A stretch of 27,989 nt of DNA, taken from positions 1 to 27,989 of the IMG/VR virus record IMGVR_UViG_3300030107_006634. The stretch is one strand, 5' to 3'. Below are positions 6,286-24,756 of the stretch, piece after piece (within the stretch, counting starts at the first letter, position 1; the number at the start of each line of letters is the position of its first letter). This DNA comes from a virus. Below the pieces are notes generated by a model, which saw nothing but the letters and a program-made list of their open reading frames with translations, did no database searches and was not told where the DNA came from. The translations under genes and the position numbers were made by a program.

Positions 6286-6460
6286 TTACACTTGCAAAGA
6301 TTGTGGATATAAGTGGGTAGGCTTTTATAAAAAATCAGAGACCCCTAAATGTATTAAGTGCGAATCATTTAATTGGAATCGATTTGGAAGCCCACAAGTG
6401 CAACTTAACCCAATAACTGACAAACACCTAAGAAAAGAGCTTGGTGAAGATATTTTATGA
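6275..6460 (+). CDS. Small zinc-ribbon protein
   Basis: A 61-residue protein with a zinc ribbon: CKDC (7-10) and CIKC (26-29), around YKWVGFYKKSETPK. The fold is that of short rubredoxin-like or FmdB-like ribbons found in many phages. The start is GTG 6275, overlapping the previous gene by 11 nt. The stop overlaps the lysozyme ATG as ATGA, so translation is likely coupled. Function beyond zinc binding is unknown. Confidence 0.7.
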   Translation: MTHNYTCKDCGYKWVGFYKKSETPKCIKCESFNWNRFGSPQVQLNPITDKHLRKELGEDIL

Positions 6461-6882
6461 AAGACTTAGATAATTTAAAAGAACAGATTGCACGCCACGA
6501 AGGCTACGAGCCTAAAGTATATAAATGCTCTAATGGGTTTGATACTATTGGTTATGGGTTCGCTATAAAAGATTTGGTAATGGATCGTGAAGTTGCAGAC
6601 CTCATTCTAGATGGAAAAATAAATAATATAATTAAAAGTATAGGCAATCACGATGATTGGAGCGAATGGTTTTTTGAAAAACCAAAAGCTATACAAGAAG
6701 TACTTATAAATATGATATTCCAGATTGGATTTTCTGGAGTACGAAAATTTAGAAAAACAATACAATATATAAAAGATGATAACTTTTTGAAGGCTAGCGA
6801 GGAGATGCTCGATTCTAAATGGGCAAAGTCTGACAGTCCTAATAGGGCTAAAGAGTTAAGTGAGATAGTAAAATCACAATAA
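6457..6882 (+). CDS. T4-type lysozyme (GH24 endolysin)
   Basis: A 141-residue muramidase that should cut the beta-1,4 bond between N-acetylmuramic acid and N-acetylglucosamine at lysis. The catalytic core aligns with T4 lysozyme: E15 in ARHEGYEPKVY, C24 where T4 has Asp20, and T30 in DTIGYGF, giving E-x8-C-x5-T. The downstream IQEVLINMIFQIG and KFRKTIQYI helices match the C-terminal lobe. There is no signal peptide, so release would need a holin. It is somewhat shorter than T4 lysozyme (164). ATG 6457 overlaps the previous stop (ATGA). Cysteine at the Asp20 position occurs in this family and engineered D20C T4 lysozyme is active, so activity is likely retained. Confidence 0.88.
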   Translation: MKDLDNLKEQIARHEGYEPKVYKCSNGFDTIGYGFAIKDLVMDREVADLILDGKINNIIKSIGNHDDWSEWFFEKPKAIQEVLINMIFQIGFSGVRKFRKTIQYIKDDNFLKASEEMLDSKWAKSDSPNRAKELSEIVKSQ

Positions 6883-6894
6883 GCTAGGAGGTCT

Positions 6895-8109
6895 ATGATA
6901 GACCCTAAAAAGTTAGTTTGTCCTAACTGCTATCATATAGGTTTAGCCAAAAAAGGCAAGTGCGCCAATACAGGCAAACAGAGGTATGGTTGCATCAAAT
7001 GTGGCTCAAGAACTATATATCCTATATGGGATGCTGACTTAGATATCGTACGAGAAAATGTAAGATTATCTAAGCAGAAGCAGAAAGCCCAGGACAACAA
7101 TAGAATATATAACAAAGCATTTCGTGAACACGCAAGAATCGAAAATGCTGTAGAAGAATACACTAAAAAATTAGTAGCGCTTTTTGAAAAAAACGAGTTA
7201 AGCAAGACAACCAATAAGTTTAAAGTCAATAATAAGGCTGTTGGCGTATTACAGTTAAGTGATGTCCACTTCAACGAATTGGTCGAATTAGAAAACAATC
7301 GATATGATTTTAGAGTTGCATCGGCAAGAGTAAGACACTTTGTAAATAAGGCTAAATCTTACTTTAAAACAGCAAATGTAAGCAATGTAGTAATGGCTCT
7401 AACTGGTGACCTTATGAATAGTGATAGGCGAGTTGATGAACTTTTAAATCAAGCTACAAATAGAGCTAATGCGACATTCCTTGCTGTGGACATACTTCAA
7501 CAGGCTATTATGGATTTAAATGAAGACTTTAACGTCACTGTAGCATCTATTATTGGCAATGAAGGTAGAGCTAACAAAGAAATGGGATGGAGTAGGATTG
7601 TAGCTTCAGATAATTATGATTATACTATTTTCCAATGTTTGCACTATTTATTTAGAGATAGTTGTGTTAAATTTATACATGGAGATCCATCAGAATTAGT
7701 AATAAATGTAGCAGGTCAAAATTTATTAATGCTTCATGGGCATGGTTCGCTAAGAGGAAAATTAGATACTTGTGTGAACCAAATCGCTGGAAGATACTCT
7801 TTAAAAGGAATAAAAATTGACTATGTTATATTTGGTCACGTTCATTCAGCTAGAGTGGGCGATAATTTTGGTAGAAGCTCGTCAATGGTTGGGGCAAATG
7901 ATTATTCAGAGAAGGCCCTAAACTTAAATGGTAGAGCAAGTCAGAACTGCTATATCTTCTATGATGATGGCAACAGAGATGGAATTAAAGTTGACCTTCA
8001 GAATGTTAAAATAAAAGGATATAATATTGAAGAATCTTTGGAGGCGTATAATGCAAAAAGTGCGAAGAAAGGTAAACAGAAAAAGACAATCTTTGAGGTT
8101 GTCGTATAA
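6895..8109 (+). CDS. Zinc-ribbon metallophosphoesterase (calcineurin-like)
   Basis: A 404-residue two-domain protein. Residues 9-36 form a zinc ribbon (CPNC ... CIKC) like those at the start of transposases and DNA-binding proteins. A charged linker follows (about 50-110). Residues 117-350 are a calcineurin-type metallophosphoesterase with SDVHF (D123, H125), TGDLMNSD (D172), IIGNEGR (N222), LHGHG (H281/H283) and FGHVHS (H315, H317). The usual GNH(D/E) is GNE, so one histidine is missing. Such enzymes use two metals to hydrolyse phosphodiesters or phosphomonoesters; the nucleic-acid-like ribbon suggests a DNA or RNA substrate. AGGAGG lies at 6886-6891. It stands between lysozyme and membrane proteins, an unexpected place for a DNA-processing enzyme. 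Confidence 0.85.
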   Translation: MIDPKKLVCPNCYHIGLAKKGKCANTGKQRYGCIKCGSRTIYPIWDADLDIVRENVRLSKQKQKAQDNNRIYNKAFREHARIENAVEEYTKKLVALFEKNELSKTTNKFKVNNKAVGVLQLSDVHFNELVELENNRYDFRVASARVRHFVNKAKSYFKTANVSNVVMALTGDLMNSDRRVDELLNQATNRANATFLAVDILQQAIMDLNEDFNVTVASIIGNEGRANKEMGWSRIVASDNYDYTIFQCLHYLFRDSCVKFIHGDPSELVINVAGQNLLMLHGHGSLRGKLDTCVNQIAGRYSLKGIKIDYVIFGHVHSARVGDNFGRSSSMVGANDYSEKALNLNGRASQNCYIFYDDGNRDGIKVDLQNVKIKGYNIEESLEAYNAKSAKKGKQKKTIFEVVV

Positions 8110-15719: not shown

Positions 15720-16108
15720 GCAAATTTCATAGTTATCCTTACGAGGCGCAACTACCTGTTATGGTTAATGGCGAGTATGAGACTCGAACATTTACTTGCG
15801 ATGAAGATGTTTGGGATGTTGTTGATTTAATTATTGAAGAAACTAAGGAAATGAGCTTGAAACAAAATAAAGATTTTAGTATAGCTAGTTCTGTAAAATC
15901 TCAACTCCCATTCTTTGCTTGCAATGATATCGTATATGACAAGCAGTGCCAAAAAGATATTCAAAGATATATATACTCAGAAAACTTTGGGATACAGCCA
16001 TATAGTGGATCTTATGGTGACCAACCATGTAGATGGGTGCAAAAATCTTTTGTAATTAAAAAAGCATTAAATAAAGTTCAACAAAAGGCAATAAAAGATG
16101 TCAAATAA
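15665..16108 (+). CDS. Tail assembly chaperone, frameshift extension (gpT-like)
   Basis: This open frame lies in the -1 frame relative to the preceding gene and reaches 16108. It may be read as a fusion (about 233 residues in total) after frameshifting near 15665, or from ATG 15698 as a free 136-residue protein (MVEQCGGCKFHSYPYEAQLP). No Shine-Dalgarno sequence precedes ATG 15698, which favours fusion. The part has seven cysteines, including CGGC (5-8 from that ATG), C35, and later cysteines near FACNDIVYDKQC and QPCRW, so it may bind metal or form a knot. Cysteine-rich gpT extensions are unusual. It overlaps the tape measure start by 11 nt. Confidence 0.6.
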   Translation, partial: GRESLQVELNVMVEQCGGCKFHSYPYEAQLPVMVNGEYETRTFTCDEDVWDVVDLIIEETKEMSLKQNKDFSIASSVKSQLPFFACNDIVYDKQCQKDIQRYIYSENFGIQPYSGSYGDQPCRWVQKSFVIKKALNKVQQKAIKDVK

Positions 16109-18197
16109 TACCATCACAGTAAAGTTTAAACCTGAAGGCGATAAGGCTTTAAAGGCTGCAATAAATTCTTTAGCAGCAGCTCAAAAAAAATACGAACAAG
16201 GCGTACATCTTGTAGAGCAAAGAGTTTCTAGTAATACGAAAACCCATAGGTCACACTCAAAAATTCTTGATAGTTTAAAAGGTAAATTTGCTGTTCTAAG
16301 AAACAGTCTTCTTTTATACGCTTTTGGATATGGGATATTAAAGAAAAGTATAGGTGGGGTAATTTCTTCTTATGCAGAACAGCAACTAGCAGAAAAAAAG
16401 CTAGAGCAAGCCCTAGGAAGAACTAGTAGTGCATTGTTAAGCCACGCATCTGCATTGCAAGGAGTGACTACATTTGGAGATGAAACGATTATATCTGCTC
16501 AAGCATTACTTGCTGCGTTTGTTGATGACGAGCAACAATTAAAAAGAGCAACTATAGCGACATTAGATTTAGCAGCAGCTAAGGGAATGGACTTAGCATC
16601 AGCAGCAGACCTTGTAGGAAAAACATTAGGGTCGTCAACTAATTCTCTGTCAAGATATGGAATTGAGGTTGAAGGGGCTGTTGGTTCTACGCAAAGATTA
16701 GATACTCTTACTAGAAATATATCAAATACTTTTGGTGGTCAAGCTAAAGCTCAGGCAGAAACTTTATCTGGAAGTATACAGCAAATGCAAAATTCAATGG
16801 GAGATGCAGCAGAACTTATGGGGCAAGTTCTTGAGCCTGCAATGCTTGTGGTGGTCGACTTACTTAGTTCAGCAGCAGAAGCTGCTATATCATTTATGAG
16901 AGGATTAACTGAGACTCCTTTAGAATCAACAATAAGAGAACTTGAAGCTTTAAATATTGAAGCAGAGTCTTTAATGCAATTAAAAAATATACAATTAAAT
17001 AAAGAAATAAGAATTTTAAACGCAGAGATAGAAAAAGTTAATACTGAAATGTTAACTCAGGAAGATATACAAACTAGGCTGAACAAAATAACATCAGAAA
17101 GAAATGATGTGTTAACTGAGCTTGGCAAAAAACAAGCAGAAGTGAGCGAAGATGCTTTGAGTGATGTAAAAATGCAAGTAGCTAGTGTCCAAGATAGGCA
17201 CATGAGAGAAAGAGAGCTAATGGAAGATGGTAATTCTACAAGGGCAGATTTCGCAGCTTCAGAAAAAAGAGAGAGAGAAACAATAGCAGCTATATATGAA
17301 AATTTTTACAAAAACCGAGGCGATGCTGAGGCTACTAGGCTTCTTGAGCTAGACAAAGAAGAAGAAAAATTACTAGAAATTGCCTCGATATTAGCTCAAA
17401 GATTAGGATTAGAGGCTCAAATAACTGGCCTAAACGATAGAGGAACTGGATCTGGAGGTGCTGACAGTAGGACATCTCAAGAAATAGAATTAAACTCAAA
17501 ACTAAGAGAGTCTCTTATAGAACTAAGGGCTGAAAGAGGCGAAATCAGCAGAGTTAAAGAAGAAGAGCTTTTAATGGATTCTCAAATTTTAGCGATGCAG
17601 CAACTTGTTCAACAAGGACACAAAGATCAAATAGATTTAACTATCTTAGAAAATGAAATGGAGTTAAAATCAATTCAAATAAAGAAACAAAAACAAAAAG
17701 TTCAAGCAGATGTAACAAAGCAAATAATATCAGATACTATAAAGTTAGGGCAGTTGTTGGCTAAAGATGAAAAAGATCAAAAAAAGCTTGCCTTTGCTGG
17801 TGCGATGGTTGATGTTGTCGCTGCTTCTTTAGCTACTTTTAGGAAAGTTTCAGAGATAATGCTACCTCCAGCACCTCAAATTGCTGCTTTAGCACAGTTT
17901 GGCATAGGATCAGCAATAGCATTTAAAATGAATGAATTTGAACAAGGTGGACTTGTAGGTGGTAGAAGACATAGCCAAGGAGGCACAATTATAGAGGCAG
18001 AGCGTGGAGAGTATGTTATGAGCCGAAATGCTGTAGATTCTATTGGTGTTGATAATTTAGATGCTATGAATCAAGGTGGCGCTGGGACATCAATCGTAAT
18101 AAACAATCCTATAATTTCTTCTGAATTTGTAGAAACAGAATTACCTGAGCTAATTGCAGAGGCAGTTAGAAAAGGTGCAGACTTTGGGATGTCATGA
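16098..18197 (+). CDS. Tape measure protein
   Basis: A 699-residue protein following the chaperones. The N-terminal third has a hydrophobic stretch (FAVLRNSLLLYAFGYGILKK, about 63-85) and the SAADLVGKTLGSSTNSLSRY pattern of tape measure proteins. Long helical coiled-coil segments (about 280-360 and 470-560) follow. The C-terminal part has a hydrophobic region (FAGAMVDVVAASLATFRK) and the common phage motif FEQGGLVGGRRHSQGG ... AERGEYVMSRNAVDSIG (about 612-650). It sets tail length and is ejected with DNA; at roughly 0.15 nm per residue the tail would be near 105 nm. The start overlaps the chaperone end by 11 nt, and its stop overlaps the next ATG as ATGA. Confidence 0.88.
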   Translation: MSNNTITVKFKPEGDKALKAAINSLAAAQKKYEQGVHLVEQRVSSNTKTHRSHSKILDSLKGKFAVLRNSLLLYAFGYGILKKSIGGVISSYAEQQLAEKKLEQALGRTSSALLSHASALQGVTTFGDETIISAQALLAAFVDDEQQLKRATIATLDLAAAKGMDLASAADLVGKTLGSSTNSLSRYGIEVEGAVGSTQRLDTLTRNISNTFGGQAKAQAETLSGSIQQMQNSMGDAAELMGQVLEPAMLVVVDLLSSAAEAAISFMRGLTETPLESTIRELEALNIEAESLMQLKNIQLNKEIRILNAEIEKVNTEMLTQEDIQTRLNKITSERNDVLTELGKKQAEVSEDALSDVKMQVASVQDRHMRERELMEDGNSTRADFAASEKRERETIAAIYENFYKNRGDAEATRLLELDKEEEKLLEIASILAQRLGLEAQITGLNDRGTGSGGADSRTSQEIELNSKLRESLIELRAERGEISRVKEEELLMDSQILAMQQLVQQGHKDQIDLTILENEMELKSIQIKKQKQKVQADVTKQIISDTIKLGQLLAKDEKDQKKLAFAGAMVDVVAASLATFRKVSEIMLPPAPQIAALAQFGIGSAIAFKMNEFEQGGLVGGRRHSQGGTIIEAERGEYVMSRNAVDSIGVDNLDAMNQGGAGTSIVINNPIISSEFVETELPELIAEAVRKGADFGMS

Positions 18198-21100
18198 TAG
18201 ATGTAACTAATAAAATGAGAAGGGATTTAATTGACGATGTAAGCGCATTTGATATTATGGCTGTAATATCTTCTGCGACTGAAACTTTTTACATATCAAC
18301 AAGAGAACAATATTTTGAAGGTAATTTTTACGAAGACTACGACCTCAATATAGGGAGTCTAAAAGAATCAATAAATTTCAAAACAAAAAAAATAAAAATA
18401 TCTTCAACAAGCGTAACACTAAATAACTTTGAAAAGGATGGACTTAGATTTACAGATAGGGCGAAACATGGATTACTCAATGCAACTGTAGATATTTATT
18501 TAAAGACAGCAACCTGTGATAACCTATCAGATTGTGCTAAGATAGCTATGCTAAAAGTAGCTAGGTTTAATCAAGACCCACAAAAAGTAACATTGAAATG
18601 TGAGGAATACTTGTCAAATGCACTACAAACTGAACTTCCTAGAAAAGAAACCACCTTATTTTCTGAAGATAACGATTCAAATTACTTAAATGCTAAAACT
18701 CAAGAGATATATAACAACCAAAGAGTGCCAATCTTATATGGTCATTTAGAAGAAGCGCCAGCAATATCATATATGCCTATTGGTACAGGGCAAATAAGAA
18801 TAATCCCAGATTTAGTTGCAGGTGTTGGAATAAAAGATATGCCAAACCCTGCTATCTCAACTGACGTTGGTATAGAAACAGATAGTAATTTTGGTGGAGT
18901 AAAAGTTACTCAGTTGATAGATCAAGATGTTTTAACTATAAAACTAGGAGATGCTGGGGCTAGAGTATACAAGCATATCCCAAGGCAAGCCAATGATAAA
19001 ATTTTAAGGAGTCCATTTGATAGGCAATTTGATGTAAGAAATGAATCTGAGCTTAATTTTGTTGACTTTTACACAGAAAGAATTGATGCGAAAGACGTTT
19101 CTCCATTTTTAGAGCAAGGCGCTTTACTCGTGGGAGAGCTATCAAAATTAACAAATGCTGTAGCACATCATAATGTATATGCTGTTGATGCGTATCGTGA
19201 TACTGCAAATGAATACTTTAGATTTAATCTTAACAACAATATAAATAATTTAGATTTCTCTAATTCAGATTTATTTACAGAAGTATGCGCCAAGTGGGGT
19301 GATGTTTCAAATTTTAATGGCAGTTCACCTAACAATATCCCTTATTCGCAAAGAATAGTCGGAGGAGAAGAGGTGTCAGTCCACCTTGGTGGTTCTGGAG
19401 CTGGATCAGAAGGTGACCATTATCTACAAAGCAATCCTTGTATAGATTTTCAGTTCGAGGAAATGAAATGCGATTCTGATATTTTTAAAGACAACAAAGG
19501 AATAGAAGCTCCATCTGATTACAATTTAATTACTTTTGCACAAGTGCATCATGGGTGGGATGACGCTCAGTATCAAGGTTATTATGGATATCAGCCTAAA
19601 TTAGCTTGGTGTTTTTTCCCTGGAAAAGCAGACCAAACTTTCGGTAATGCCCTCTCTTTTAAAACTAGCTTCACAGAAGACGAGAAAGACGAATATTTTC
19701 AAAGTGAAAACCCTCTAGGGTTTCATCCAAACGTATTAAATGGTGCTGTAGCAGACTTTGAATTTGATCCAGAAGAATATAGTGAAGAAGAAATTTTAGA
19801 AAAAAATACTTATGAAGGGCTAAACGATAAAGCTGGAACGTCTTCTAATGGATACTATTATAAACAACAAAAAGTTCCATCAAGAATAGCGCCAATGCTA
19901 TTAATGTCAACACGAAATTATGTTGGGACTACTTACATATCTAATACGACCTATGATGCGTATCCAATAATTGATTACAGACATTGCTTTAATTATCCAT
20001 TAAATGATAGCAACGATAAAGATATAAACCAATGGAGGAATAGGAGTGGATGGGTTTCTTCTTATTCTATGCACGATACAAGATCTGTGTTGCTTAATTT
20101 TGTTCCTTTCAGTGGCAGCACTACTGACGATGATGCTTTTAATGACATTAACTATATAGATATGGATTTTTATGCAGAATTTGCAGGTATGCTAATTAGA
20201 AGAACTTGGTTTCAAAAAGATGCTTTTAATAAAAAGTTTTTCTTGAACGCTAAAGGAAGATACGACAACTATCTTCCTAATCCAGAAAATAGAATATGGA
20301 GGGTAGATAATGCTATTCTTACTGCAATATCTAAAAATAAAAGACCATCTGGAGATGAGGGAGATTTTGGAAATAGTACTACAGCTATAACACAAAATGA
20401 TTCACTACTAAGGTATGTATTAGACTACATCGGCAATAAAAAACTTAAATATAGAGAACAAGGGGATTATTCTTCGGAGATAATGTTAAAATTATTCTTC
20501 GAGCCAGATGGTAGCGACTCATTGGCAGATTCTCTGTTAGAAGGGGAAATTGACTACGTTTTTGATTTAGAGCTAAATCAATTTACAAGCACGATACAAA
20601 TAGGAGTTCTTGCTGCATACCCATTTCAAATAAGTGGAACTTTGTTTAGGCAAAATAGCCCTTATTATGAACAGTATGGGACATATAACGATTTAACTGA
20701 AGATGTTGATGTCCAATGTAAAAATATTAGTTTAGTATATTGCAGGAAAAATATAGATGTTAATGGTAATGTTACAAGTATAGATGAAGTCGAAGAAATT
20801 GTTGATTTCACAGAAGAAGTCCCAGATAATGATGAGTTTACTAGATTTAGGTTAAAAAGCGAAGATATAAGCCCAGCAAAAAAATTAATAACAATTCCAA
20901 AGAGTATAGCTAAAGATTTACTTGTAAGAGAATTGCAAGTACCATCAAGCCAATTTATAACAAAAAATACAAATGATTCTCAATATAGTTTAAGTTTTTC
21001 CTTGCATGAGCCACAGAGAACAGTAGATGTTTTACAGAAAATATGTGAAAATTCTAATTCTTACTATAAGACTTCTATAAAAAATTCAGTCCCTACTTTT

Positions 21101-23191
21101 ATAGGGATTACAGATAATTATATTAGCGCAGATAAGACTATATATGTTGACTATATGGAGTCTTATAAATTCAGCAAAACTAAAATAGAAGATTTGGCGA
21201 TTAAATGTAGGGTGAAATATGGCTATGATTACATTGCAGAAGAGTATAAAAATATTACTGAAGAAAGAATAGTTCCGAATATAGAAAATTACAAAAATTA
21301 CTATGGATTGACTGACAGCCAAATAGATGGAGAAGATTTTTTATTAGAGCATGAAGCTCCATATATACAAGATTCACAGACAGCGCTTCTATTGAGAAAT
21401 CATTTGCATGAGCTACACAAGAACCAACATACTATTGTAGATTTTAAATTAAACTTATCTCAAGGATTTGACTTAGAGGTAGGAGATATCGTTGATTTTA
21501 AAACTATAGGAAGTGATGAGTATAAATCATTCTTTTCTCCCTATGGAGTAGACATTATGGCTGTCACAGGTCTTCCTATGTTACCAGATATTATAGGAGA
21601 CCAACAAGCAGTTCTTCCATACTTTATGCTAACAGACGTAACAAAAACAATGAATGGTGTATCTGTTAGGGCAATTCAAATGCACGACTTATCAGGAGCA
21701 GTTGCAGTCCCTGGAGAGCAAGACGAACCTGATGCTCCACAAGTTTTAATTGGCGATGTTGATAATGATGGAGAGGCTTATACTATCAATGACTTCCGAT
21801 TATTATACGATTTTGTTATGGAGGATGGGGTTTTAGACGAACAACAACTTTTAAATGCAGATATAGCTGGTGAAGGTGATGGGAATGTAGATGTTTTAGA
21901 TCTTATGGATTTTGTTGCTAATGTAAAGAATGACATGGGAGATGCTTTTCTTCCTGGAGATGCAAATCTTGATGGGGTTGTTACTGAGGAAGACATAGAA
22001 TTAGTTCAAAGCTATATAGATAATCCAAACACTTCTGAACTTACAATGGCAGGCTTTATAAATGCAGATATGGATGAAAACTTTATAATTAATGAGGTTG
22101 ATATAGAAGCGATTGATGCGCTACTCCCTCCAGATGAAGCCGAAGCTACAGGTCAACTTTTAATTGATACTACAAATGACAATGGATATGGAGCTATAAC
22201 TTTAGGATATACTAATAATGAGATTGCAATTACTTTTTTGAAAGCTGTTAATATTGATGCAGGCGACTATGAGTTGGAAGATTTTTTGCTAGACCTAGAA
22301 AATAACGACCTTACTTTGGTTGGCACTAATATAACTTTTCAGCCACTTTTTACAGGTGAATTAGATTATACCAATGGAGACATTATTAATATCACATACC
22401 CTTGGTTAGAAGCAGCAGGAGATTATACTATAAATGCTATAGAATACAACACTTCATTTGGTGGACTTTATACCTTTCGTTTAGATGCAAGTGGGATAGA
22501 TAGTACAGGCTTAACAGATTTGGGTACTACCCAAGGTATTGGTGGAACAAATGACGTTAATGTAAAAATATATGGAACTCCAGAGACAATATTTGTCCCA
22601 GACCCAGATGGAGATGGATATGTTGAGCTTTTATCTACTAGGCATTATTATGAGCAAAATGGTTATGATAGCTATATGCCAGCTTCTTATACATATTCAA
22701 GTGGAGCGCAACTTCAAGGTTTGGATAATAGTGAAATGATAATTACAGGTAATAATAATACAATTCTTCCAAATGCTACATTTCCTGAACTTAGAGGTGA
22801 AGCTTCTGACTTAATAGTAAATGGTGCGCAGACATATTATAGATTAAATTTTACCTTTAATGAAGAGCGTGCAAATCTGACTAGCCAAACTCTTACCGAT
22901 GATGAATTGACTATAATAAATAATTGGCTGCAATTAAATGGATGTTACGCTAGGCTCAGTGGTTCTAATGCTAATTTCATGAGGTTTAATTGGGGTACTC
23001 TTCTAAATCCAGATGGTGGAGATACAGAATATGATTGGTTTCCAGATTTTAATGTAGGGTTACTTCAATTATATCCTTCAGAAGCAGGAGGATTCAATTT
23101 AACAATAAACGCTGATAATCTTCAATTAGTGCCTTCAATTAGAGATTTTCTTATTTTAACTATAGAATATCCACTGGATTACAATGAGTAA
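18194..23191 (+). CDS. Giant tail-tip protein with dockerin-like calcium-binding repeats
   Basis: A 1665-residue protein, by far the largest in the window, placed directly after the tape measure (ATGA overlap), where distal-tail, hub and tip functions are encoded. The first 1180 residues include hub-like segments (LHEPQRTVDVLQKICENS, LEVGDIVDFKTIGSDEYK) typical of tail-associated proteins of marine siphoviruses. Residues about 1187-1313 hold four dockerin-type calcium loops (D1188, D1223, D1256 and D1292 as first residues). The remaining 350 residues are a beta-rich part with a PDPDGDGYVE acidic loop, probably a receptor-binding or carbohydrate-contacting domain. The distal tail role is inferred from order; the calcium loops are seen directly. 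No peptidase or lysozyme motif was found. Confidence 0.75.
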   Translation: MIDVTNKMRRDLIDDVSAFDIMAVISSATETFYISTREQYFEGNFYEDYDLNIGSLKESINFKTKKIKISSTSVTLNNFEKDGLRFTDRAKHGLLNATVDIYLKTATCDNLSDCAKIAMLKVARFNQDPQKVTLKCEEYLSNALQTELPRKETTLFSEDNDSNYLNAKTQEIYNNQRVPILYGHLEEAPAISYMPIGTGQIRIIPDLVAGVGIKDMPNPAISTDVGIETDSNFGGVKVTQLIDQDVLTIKLGDAGARVYKHIPRQANDKILRSPFDRQFDVRNESELNFVDFYTERIDAKDVSPFLEQGALLVGELSKLTNAVAHHNVYAVDAYRDTANEYFRFNLNNNINNLDFSNSDLFTEVCAKWGDVSNFNGSSPNNIPYSQRIVGGEEVSVHLGGSGAGSEGDHYLQSNPCIDFQFEEMKCDSDIFKDNKGIEAPSDYNLITFAQVHHGWDDAQYQGYYGYQPKLAWCFFPGKADQTFGNALSFKTSFTEDEKDEYFQSENPLGFHPNVLNGAVADFEFDPEEYSEEEILEKNTYEGLNDKAGTSSNGYYYKQQKVPSRIAPMLLMSTRNYVGTTYISNTTYDAYPIIDYRHCFNYPLNDSNDKDINQWRNRSGWVSSYSMHDTRSVLLNFVPFSGSTTDDDAFNDINYIDMDFYAEFAGMLIRRTWFQKDAFNKKFFLNAKGRYDNYLPNPENRIWRVDNAILTAISKNKRPSGDEGDFGNSTTAITQNDSLLRYVLDYIGNKKLKYREQGDYSSEIMLKLFFEPDGSDSLADSLLEGEIDYVFDLELNQFTSTIQIGVLAAYPFQISGTLFRQNSPYYEQYGTYNDLTEDVDVQCKNISLVYCRKNIDVNGNVTSIDEVEEIVDFTEEVPDNDEFTRFRLKSEDISPAKKLITIPKSIAKDLLVRELQVPSSQFITKNTNDSQYSLSFSLHEPQRTVDVLQKICENSNSYYKTSIKNSVPTFIGITDNYISADKTIYVDYMESYKFSKTKIEDLAIKCRVKYGYDYIAEEYKNITEERIVPNIENYKNYYGLTDSQIDGEDFLLEHEAPYIQDSQTALLLRNHLHELHKNQHTIVDFKLNLSQGFDLEVGDIVDFKTIGSDEYKSFFSPYGVDIMAVTGLPMLPDIIGDQQAVLPYFMLTDVTKTMNGVSVRAIQMHDLSGAVAVPGEQDEPDAPQVLIGDVDNDGEAYTINDFRLLYDFVMEDGVLDEQQLLNADIAGEGDGNVDVLDLMDFVANVKNDMGDAFLPGDANLDGVVTEEDIELVQSYIDNPNTSELTMAGFINADMDENFIINEVDIEAIDALLPPDEAEATGQLLIDTTNDNGYGAITLGYTNNEIAITFLKAVNIDAGDYELEDFLLDLENNDLTLVGTNITFQPLFTGELDYTNGDIINITYPWLEAAGDYTINAIEYNTSFGGLYTFRLDASGIDSTGLTDLGTTQGIGGTNDVNVKIYGTPETIFVPDPDGDGYVELLSTRHYYEQNGYDSYMPASYTYSSGAQLQGLDNSEMIITGNNNTILPNATFPELRGEASDLIVNGAQTYYRLNFTFNEERANLTSQTLTDDELTIINNWLQLNGCYARLSGSNANFMRFNWGTLLNPDGGDTEYDWFPDFNVGLLQLYPSEAGGFNLTINADNLQLVPSIRDFLILTIEYPLDYNE
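21752..22132 (+). other. Dockerin-like domain region (four F-hand loops) within the tail-tip gene
   Basis: Encoded loops: GDVDNDGEAYTINDF (residue 1187 on; one extra residue), ADIAGEGDGNVDVLDL (1222 on; expanded), GDANLDGVVTEEDI (1255 on; D1256, N1258, D1260, G1261, D1267, a perfect type I F-hand) and ADMDENFIINEVDI (1291 on; D, D, N, D in order). Each is followed by a short helix (LLYDFV, MDFVANV, LVQSYI, EAIDALL), so they make two paired modules of the type I dockerin plan. Dockerins bind calcium and usually dock onto cohesin partners. No cohesin is recognisable in the window. Confidence 0.75.
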
Positions 23192-23609
23192 TTTAATACA
23201 ATATCAAAACCATGTAGACTTTGATTCCAAAGGTAGCATTTTATCTATGCAGATAGAATATTATGGTAGAATGTCAATAGATTTAAATATAGATGTTAGA
23301 AACGCTAATATTACAGATAATAAAATATCTATAACATTTTTCCCAGGAACTCAAATTAATGATACTTTGTTTACTTATAAAGGAATTTTAAATATTAGGC
23401 AAGTTACTATTTTTGGTAAAGGTCGTAGATTAAATGCAAGTACTAAAGTAGTAGATCAAACATTTGCGAAAGTTACAGATAAATGGGATGAGGCACATAC
23501 AAATACATGGGAGTCTTATCGTTTTAAAGTTAATAGCTCTAAAGAGCAAAAAAAGAGTATAACATATAGCTATAAAGGCTTAAAGAAAAAAAAGACACCA
23601 AGATTATAA
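23184..23609 (+). CDS. Conserved-position unknown protein after the tail-tip gene
   Basis: A 141-residue protein overlapping the tail-tip stop by 8 nt. It is beta-rich in the first 90 residues (GSILSMQIEYYGRMSIDLN, NKISITFFPGTQIND) and ends in a basic tail (YSYKGLKKKKTPRL). No motif is recognised. Coupling to the tail-tip gene and lack of a strong binding site suggest a stoichiometric partner, perhaps another tail-tip component. Cellular location is unknown. Confidence 0.6.
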   Translation: MSNLIQYQNHVDFDSKGSILSMQIEYYGRMSIDLNIDVRNANITDNKISITFFPGTQINDTLFTYKGILNIRQVTIFGKGRRLNASTKVVDQTFAKVTDKWDEAHTNTWESYRFKVNSSKEQKKSITYSYKGLKKKKTPRL

Positions 23610-23619
23610 GGAATTATAG

Positions 23620-24756
23620 ATGGCATTACCAAAAGCAACATATTCAGTACCAAAAACACCTCGTGTTTATATAGACAATTTGCTATTTGCAAAAGCAATG
23701 AATATAAAGGTAAACTTTGGAGACCTTTTAAGGGTAGCAGAAAATGATACTTCGCCTACGTTTTTTAATAACATTGCAGAAAGAAGAAGAATTTGGGATT
23801 TAGACCCTAGTAGATATGTTACGATAAAAAATACAGATGTAAGTATTAAAAAGATTGCTACTGAATTTTATATAACACAGGATTATGGGGATAGTATAAG
23901 GCCATTTTTAAATTTAATGCACACTTCTAATTATGCTGCGCTATTTAATCATAATTTACATACTGGCTCAGATTCGCCAGTAACATTAGATGTGTTTTAC
24001 AATGGGCAAAGTTCAAATGATTCTTCTGGAAATGTATTGGGCACTGGTGGGACTCCAGGCTCTACTCCTATTGTAGGTCAATTTGGTCAAGACGTAGATG
24101 AAGATGGCTTTATATTATCAGGTATTAATTTAAACGCAAGTGAGGATGAAGGGCAATTACATCAATTTGATTTTGTTATAAAGCCAAGTGATGCAGATTA
24201 TTTGCCTGGTGAATTTTCATATAATATTGGGAGTTTTTCAGTTGGTACATACCTAGACTTTCCTTTTGCTCCAGATATAGAGGTGAAAATGTCTTACTCT
24301 CATGAAGGCGTAAGTAATAAAAGAACTGTAGCAGGAAAAGATTTAACGCACATCAATTACACTGGCGCACCAAATTGGGGGAATCTAGCACCATTTACTA
24401 CATCAAAGGGCGCTACAGATAATTTTATAGGAGTAAATTATACTGGCAGAAAATCTTGGGATATGAAATTTTCTTATATAGATAAAACAGATATGTTTAA
24501 CGCTATTCAATCTGGCAGTACAGCAGGTGGGTACTTTAGGGTTGTTGATGGATTTTCTGTTGGTTTAAAAACAGAAAGCTCAATACTTGCTACCTATCTA
24601 AATAGAACATTGTCAGGAAGCTTAAAGCATATCCTGCAACCAGACAATACAAGGAATGAATTTTACATAGTTAAATTAGATCAAAAATCTACAAAAATAA
24701 ATCAAGTCGCACCTGGAACATTTGAAATAAATCTTAAATTTGTTCAGGTTTGGTAG
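23620..24756 (+). CDS. Probable tail-associated structural protein
   Basis: A 378-residue protein with AAGGA upstream of ATG 23620. It is beta-rich with many aromatic residues (RRIWDLDPSRYVTIKNTDVS, NYTGRKSWDMKFSYIDK). A Gly/Ser/Thr-rich linker (about 130-150) divides two halves, suggesting two domains. It is the last gene of the long plus-strand unit and ends tail-to-tail with the nuclease gene, overlapping it by 23 nt. No enzyme motif or membrane segment is visible. A tail or tip component is the best guess from order. Confidence 0.6.
   Translation: MALPKATYSVPKTPRVYIDNLLFAKAMNIKVNFGDLLRVAENDTSPTFFNNIAERRRIWDLDPSRYVTIKNTDVSIKKIATEFYITQDYGDSIRPFLNLMHTSNYAALFNHNLHTGSDSPVTLDVFYNGQSSNDSSGNVLGTGGTPGSTPIVGQFGQDVDEDGFILSGINLNASEDEGQLHQFDFVIKPSDADYLPGEFSYNIGSFSVGTYLDFPFAPDIEVKMSYSHEGVSNKRTVAGKDLTHINYTGAPNWGNLAPFTTSKGATDNFIGVNYTGRKSWDMKFSYIDKTDMFNAIQSGSTAGGYFRVVDGFSVGLKTESSILATYLNRTLSGSLKHILQPDNTRNEFYIVKLDQKSTKINQVAPGTFEINLKFVQVW
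24712..24748. terminator. Weak inverted repeat at a convergent gene junction
   Basis: CCTGGAACA (24712-24720) can pair with TGTTCAGG (24741-24748) over 8 bp with one bulged G and a 20-nt loop. It lies where plus- and minus-strand units converge, and TTT follows. A role as a two-way transcription stop is possible but the structure is weak and within coding sequence. Confidence 0.25.

Follow-up and report, generated by a model that had tools for sequence, protein, structure and literature searches.

What is a pair of dockerins doing inside the tail tip of a phage? The question is raised by the virus record IMGVR_UViG_3300030107_006634, whose 27,989 bases (referred to here as the window) encode a terminase, a major head protein, a tape measure protein and other tail genes. 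An open reading frame (ORF) at 18194-23191, on the plus strand like all the features of the tip region given below, codes for a tail-tip hub protein of 1665 residues. In this protein a first-pass annotation had noticed four consecutive loops of the dockerin F-hand plan, lying between a hub-like part and a beta-rich C-terminal part. Dockerins are otherwise read almost everywhere as plugs for cohesins and are known mainly from bacterial cellulose-digesting machines. It was found that the stretch consists of two genuine dockerin domains. Since they are shared by all nine complete members of the phage clade, they probably serve in the contact between tail tip and host.

Identification of two dockerin domains

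The four loops are indeed present at residues 1187-1313 (21752-22132) and make up two dockerins, the first at residues 1185-1250 (21746-21943) and the second at residues 1252-1313 (21947-22132). The residues D1256, N1258, D1260, G1261 and D1267 had been correctly named, and the loop to which they belong, loop 3 (D1256-D1267, 21959-21994), is the sole canonical one in the window. Loop 1 (D1188-D1200, 21755-21793) has 13 residues with an invariant first and last Asp, and loop 2 (D1223-D1236, 21860-21901) has 14 residues and is degenerate in the window. In loop 4 (D1292-D1303, 22067-22102) a Phe replaces the Gly at position 6, a change found in the window and in its relative L002, Gly being present in the remaining relatives. 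Loop 2 is canonical, with 12 residues, in L002 and in another relative, L017. Asp/Asn ligands occupy loop positions 1, 3, 5 and 12, loop 1 using position 13.

The window copy is partly degenerate, and its single perfect loop is barely above chance, as such a loop arose in about 3% of segment shuffles and in 9% of whole-protein shuffles. This is unconvincing by motif alone, and for this reason the dockerin claim was rested instead on profile, fold and family conservation. The Pfam profile Dockerin_1 (PF00404, curated cut-off 22.9 bits) scored 26.1 bits at 21953-22114 in a six-frame search of the window and 24.0 bits in a scan limited to the last 607 residues; scanning of the whole protein gave 18.9 bits, which is below the cut-off. 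The profile also exceeded the cut-off in five relatives taken alone (L002, L011, L012, L017 and L027). In L002, which is 77% identical to the window protein, this was the case for both dockerins, including the counterpart of dockerin 1. In every record scanned for them, Pfam dockerin matches were confined to the tip protein.

The best sequence match across both units was the double-dockerin of Clo1313_0689 from C. thermocellum (PDB 8x39/8x3a), with E 8e-6 for the sequence alone, improving to E 1e-7 with three phage sequences. A structure model of the tandem was built from seven phage sequences, with a confidence mostly of 67-92 over the dockerins, and its best match in Foldseek was likewise 8x3a. 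Using VIA-align, residues 1184-1248 were superposed on the dockerin 2ccl_B (Z 11.7, root mean square deviation (rmsd) 1.6, 62 residues) and residues 1252-1313 on the dockerin 1ohz_B (Z 9.9, rmsd 1.7, 56 residues). Each unit of the model contains two packed F-hand loop-helix repeats. The dockerin assignment of the first-pass annotation thereby withstood the profile search, the structure prediction and, as described below, the comparison of the Asp/Asn positions with those of relatives. Profile, fold and the conservation in nine contigs confirm residues 1185-1313 as two complete dockerin domains.

Conservation in the clade

When viral contigs were searched with the tip protein, the relatives L002, L005, L009, L011, L012 and L017 were obtained. 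Four more (L027, L036, L029 and L033) were found with the hub-only pattern ILYGHL..EAPA, which is blind to the dockerin. Nine uncultivated phage contigs of the main clade, the window included, cover the region; L003, L004 and L010 end before it. The tandem dockerin was found at the same place in all nine. In L005, L009 and L036, which score below the Dockerin_1 cut-off, it was recognised by alignment. The 13-residue first loop is also present in nine of nine and is an unusual mark of the clade.

The calcium-ligand positions showed a mean entropy of 0.51, compared with 1.26 for all columns (nine sequences, relatedness uncorrected), and 131 of 135 residues at these positions were D/N/S/T/E, against a background of 37%. 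A tandem inserted incidentally, or decaying, would have no role, and the two degenerate loops of the window would agree with that. Such an origin is nevertheless extremely improbable in view of the retention in every clade member that covers the region, with near-fixed ligands.

A different pattern was observed at positions 10, 11, 17 and 18, where type I dockerins touch the cohesin. Their mean entropy was 1.74, above the average, and random columns reached a value this high in 0.3% of draws. Loop 3 is an exception, since Gln (Q1272) is found at position 17 throughout and either Glu or Gln (E/Q1265) at position 10.

These positions bear on the idea that the tandem acts as a plug, its dockerins binding a cohesin, or a beta-sandwich resembling one, that is carried by the host surface or by a separate receptor-binding module of the phage. 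The conserved Q1272 and E/Q1265 of dockerin 2 would agree with such a contact, but in the remaining loops the contact positions vary beyond the average. The earlier observation that the window holds no cohesin was upheld, and Pfam recognised no cohesin among 13 phage records, those beyond the window included. Two genes follow the tip gene, one coding for 141 residues (23184-23609) and one for 378 residues (23620-24756). In L029, a relative without the dockerin, the corresponding place is taken by similar-sized genes, compared by position and size, so that no neighbouring partner obviously tracks it. The plug is for these reasons judged unlikely, and the corresponding proposals of the first-pass annotation, in which a cohesin would hold either a host protein or a detachable module, gained no positive support: none of the phage records has a cohesin, and the contact positions vary more than the average. 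Classification of the protein as a cellulosome component was set aside, given its setting among phage structural genes and the phage records free of cohesin.

The most variable parts of the tandem are helix 1 of dockerin 1 and its linker, with mean entropies of 1.77 and 1.90, the highest found. When L009 and L027 were compared, a 60-residue block with the linker and helix 1 was 49% identical between flanking blocks at 95%. Both values would suit a dockerin that itself forms part of the receptor-binding surface, its frame held by calcium and the first helix of dockerin 1, with the linker behind it, changing rapidly. Relaxed constraint may however explain the variation, and the hub at about 200-840 and the C-terminal end are equally or more variable; this possibility is regarded as very unlikely. 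A broader version, in which the dockerin was adopted for adsorption and its fast-changing helix recognises a cohesin-fold or other protein of the host, or holds an exchangeable receptor-binding module, is rather unlikely.

The tips of L009 (L009:7971-12884) and L027 (L027:6490-11382) are mosaic. Identity is about 95% at the hub ends and in dockerin 2, and drops to 30-65% over residues about 200-840 and over the linker with the first helix of dockerin 1. This pattern suggests recombination inside the tip gene.

In L036 the linker just before the dockerin (upstream of about 3989) holds two cysteine repeats, GCTDPTANNYDPDATVNDGSC and GCTDPEATNYNPDATANDGSC. Similar cysteine repeats are common in secreted Bacteroidota proteins, and the repeats may be a faint pointer to host or habitat.

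When cellular genomes were searched for the origin of the dockerin, there was a single ordinary Oscillospiraceae match (34% over half of the stretch). Among GenBank phages the L002 dockerin was without a match and that of L011 gave one weak match (E 0.07). In BFVD, unnamed viral proteins matched the model, the best being A0A516MGL7 (E 1.5e-5, 30% identity over 201 columns). The predicted structures of A0A516MGL7, A0A516LSC1 and A0A516MDL0 match the C-terminal half of the tip protein with 27-34% identity and are possibly further dockerin-bearing tips. Related architectures probably exist among deposited but undescribed sequences.

The tail-tip protein and its setting

The setting that had been proposed, a tail-tip protein with the tandem between a hub and a beta-rich C-terminal part, was also supported. 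The tip ORF begins within the stop of its immediate 5' neighbour, the tape measure gene (16098-18197; PHROG 27166, E 4e-12), and the gene thereby adjoins the tape measure gene as in the hub class. Hub domain I was assigned to residues 1-147 (18194-18634) by VIA-align of the model. The closest structures were the Sf11 tail chain 9occ_F (Z 11.6), lambda gpL 8iyk_L (Z 11.3), the gene transfer agent (GTA) structure 6tba (Z 10.9) and T5 pb3 7zqp_b (Z 10.3). Matches to Chi, T1 and other tail tips were also obtained, the top 12 all being tail proteins (Z 8.1-11.6). The hub model has a predicted local distance difference test (pLDDT) value of 42 overall and of about 60 at residues 1-147, and the latter region matches domain I of siphophage tail-tip hubs, a tail-tube-like beta sandwich.

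For the remaining hub, residues 148-1170 (18635-21703), the model is too poor to assign folds. Residues 901-1170 are the best conserved stretch of the tip protein within the clade, and the hub is conserved as far as L029, with 22-43% identity along its length. A lambda gpJ profile did not match the hub sequence, NCBIfam and PHROGs gave nothing useful for the tip protein, the whole protein was without a match among GenBank phages, and no relatives of the hub were found in bacterial genomes.

The order of domains in the protein is hub, linker, two dockerins, beta domain and C-terminus. The linker, residues 1171-1184 (21704-21745, by alignment), is long and rich in Asp/Glu in L005, L009, L017 and L027. 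The beta-rich domain comprises residues 1321-1461 (22154-22576; model, block pLDDT about 38-83), and its best structural match is weak, being another tail chain of phage Sf11 (9occ_E, Z 6.9). Matches of the beta domain to Sen1/Upf1 and others (Z about 5) were set aside as a common barrel arrangement. The C-terminal end, residues 1466-1665 (22589-23188; alignment, pLDDT under 50), is the least conserved part, with 22% mean identity within the clade, and is probably the receptor-binding end.

L029 (L029:1240-6105) is a distant relative of the hub that lacks the dockerin. Its sequence is unrelated from the hub boundary onward, which indicates that the slot after the hub accepts different modules. 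The replacement stretch had no match in Pfam or the PDB; an Ig-like appearance by eye was dropped for want of such a match, and the stretch was kept as unrelated sequence.

Role of the tandem

In this clade of uncultivated siphophages the tandem stands directly after the hub, in what would be the slot of the FNIII pair of lambda gpJ and T5 pb3. The most likely role, which we hold to be somewhat more probable than not, is that of a calcium-dependent structural spacer in this slot. Each dockerin would fold on calcium, and the two would give a compact spacer, stabilised by calcium, at the foot of the central fibre, joining the hub to the beta domain and the hypervariable, presumably receptor-binding C-terminus. 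The spacer may also carry a mechanical signal between the hub and the receptor-binding end. Set beside the functional ideas put forward in the first pass, a calcium-dependent structural joint fits best; a hinge truly triggered by calcium could also be present.

Several points weigh against a spacer of this kind. Hub domains II-IV had no recognisable match, either by fold (in a low-confidence model) or by sequence, and consequently the placing in an FNIII slot depends on domain I and on the order of genes and of domains. Actual binding of calcium by the tandem is something that we infer, and in the window copy the ligands of loop 2 are weak. The entropy comparison ignores the kinship of the nine sequences. 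Finally, Q1272 and E/Q1265, as conserved non-ligands at cohesin-contact positions of dockerin 2, could form a binding face.

Calcium could alternatively act as a switch, the empty tandem leaving the receptor-binding end loose or folded back and the tandem loaded with extracellular calcium being stiff, with adsorption primed. Dockerins usually require calcium for folding and not for switching, and two states are not in evidence; a switch is accordingly considered rather unlikely. It would be consistent with the near-fixed ligands and with the acidic linkers adjoining the tandem in several relatives, and the calcium-driven activation of a siphophage baseplate, as described in the relevant passages of PMC3499812, is a precedent.

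If the spacer is calcium-dependent as proposed, adsorption in this clade is predicted to depend on calcium. A clade with fixed calcium ligands and free cohesin contacts shows the dockerin serving in another machine.

Other features of the window

A gene for an SbcD-like exonuclease (6895-8109; PHROG 284, E 2e-62) sits within the structural block, between the head protein and the tail genes. Its nearest relatives are from Synechococcus and Pseudomonas phages (41-44%). A small lysozyme-like protein is encoded at 6457-6882, beside the head protein gene, and matches tail lysozyme and endolysin PHROGs. A tRNA scan found none.

Comparison with known systems

The dockerin fold and the tail hub are each known, and it is their combination in a tail tip that appears to be new: among the open papers searched, none described a dockerin within a tail hub. 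The one phage genome paper found to claim dockerin homology for a gene does so for gene 40 of VvAW1 (PMC3558961). In this gene (L043:16288-18654, JQ801337) Pfam recognised a SASA carbohydrate esterase and no dockerin, and the label in the paper is probably owed to esterases that carry dockerins.

The closest known tandem is that of Clo1313_0689, a secreted S8 protease of a cellulosome bacterium whose double-dockerin binds cohesins (PMC12484212). Both proteins have two consecutive dockerins, and the protease was the best sequence and Foldseek match over both units. Its dockerins are carried by a secreted enzyme with cohesin partners, whereas the phage tandem lies inside a tail hub protein and has no known cohesin. 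Type I dockerins in general (PDB 2ccl, 1ohz and 5m2o; PF00404) share with the phage tandem the fold, the two F-hand repeats and the Asp ligands. The phage clade differs in its 13-residue first loop, in the mostly unconserved cohesin-contact residues and in the internal position of the tandem within a structural protein.

Calcium is also involved in the adsorption apparatus of the lactococcal siphophage p2, whose baseplate is activated by it according to the passages on calcium in PMC3499812. Other proteins and sites are concerned there, and those passages do not mention dockerin.

The hub of lambda gpJ and T5 pb3 has four domains, after which come a linker and a pair of FNIII domains as the first part of the central fibre; in T5 this linker moves upon receptor binding (PMC10721106, PMC10038345). 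The phage tip has in common with T5 pb3 and lambda gpL/gpJ the fold of hub domain I, a giant protein encoded directly after the tape measure gene, and two spacer domains behind the hub, with a C-terminal part beyond them. No sequence similarity to gpJ was detected, and the two FNIII domains expected directly after the hub are not found here, the stretch being the tandem dockerin. The spacer pair is FNIII in T5 and lambda and dockerin in the clade of the window, which suggests that the modules serving as spacers behind a siphophage hub can replace one another, be they FNIII, dockerin or other.
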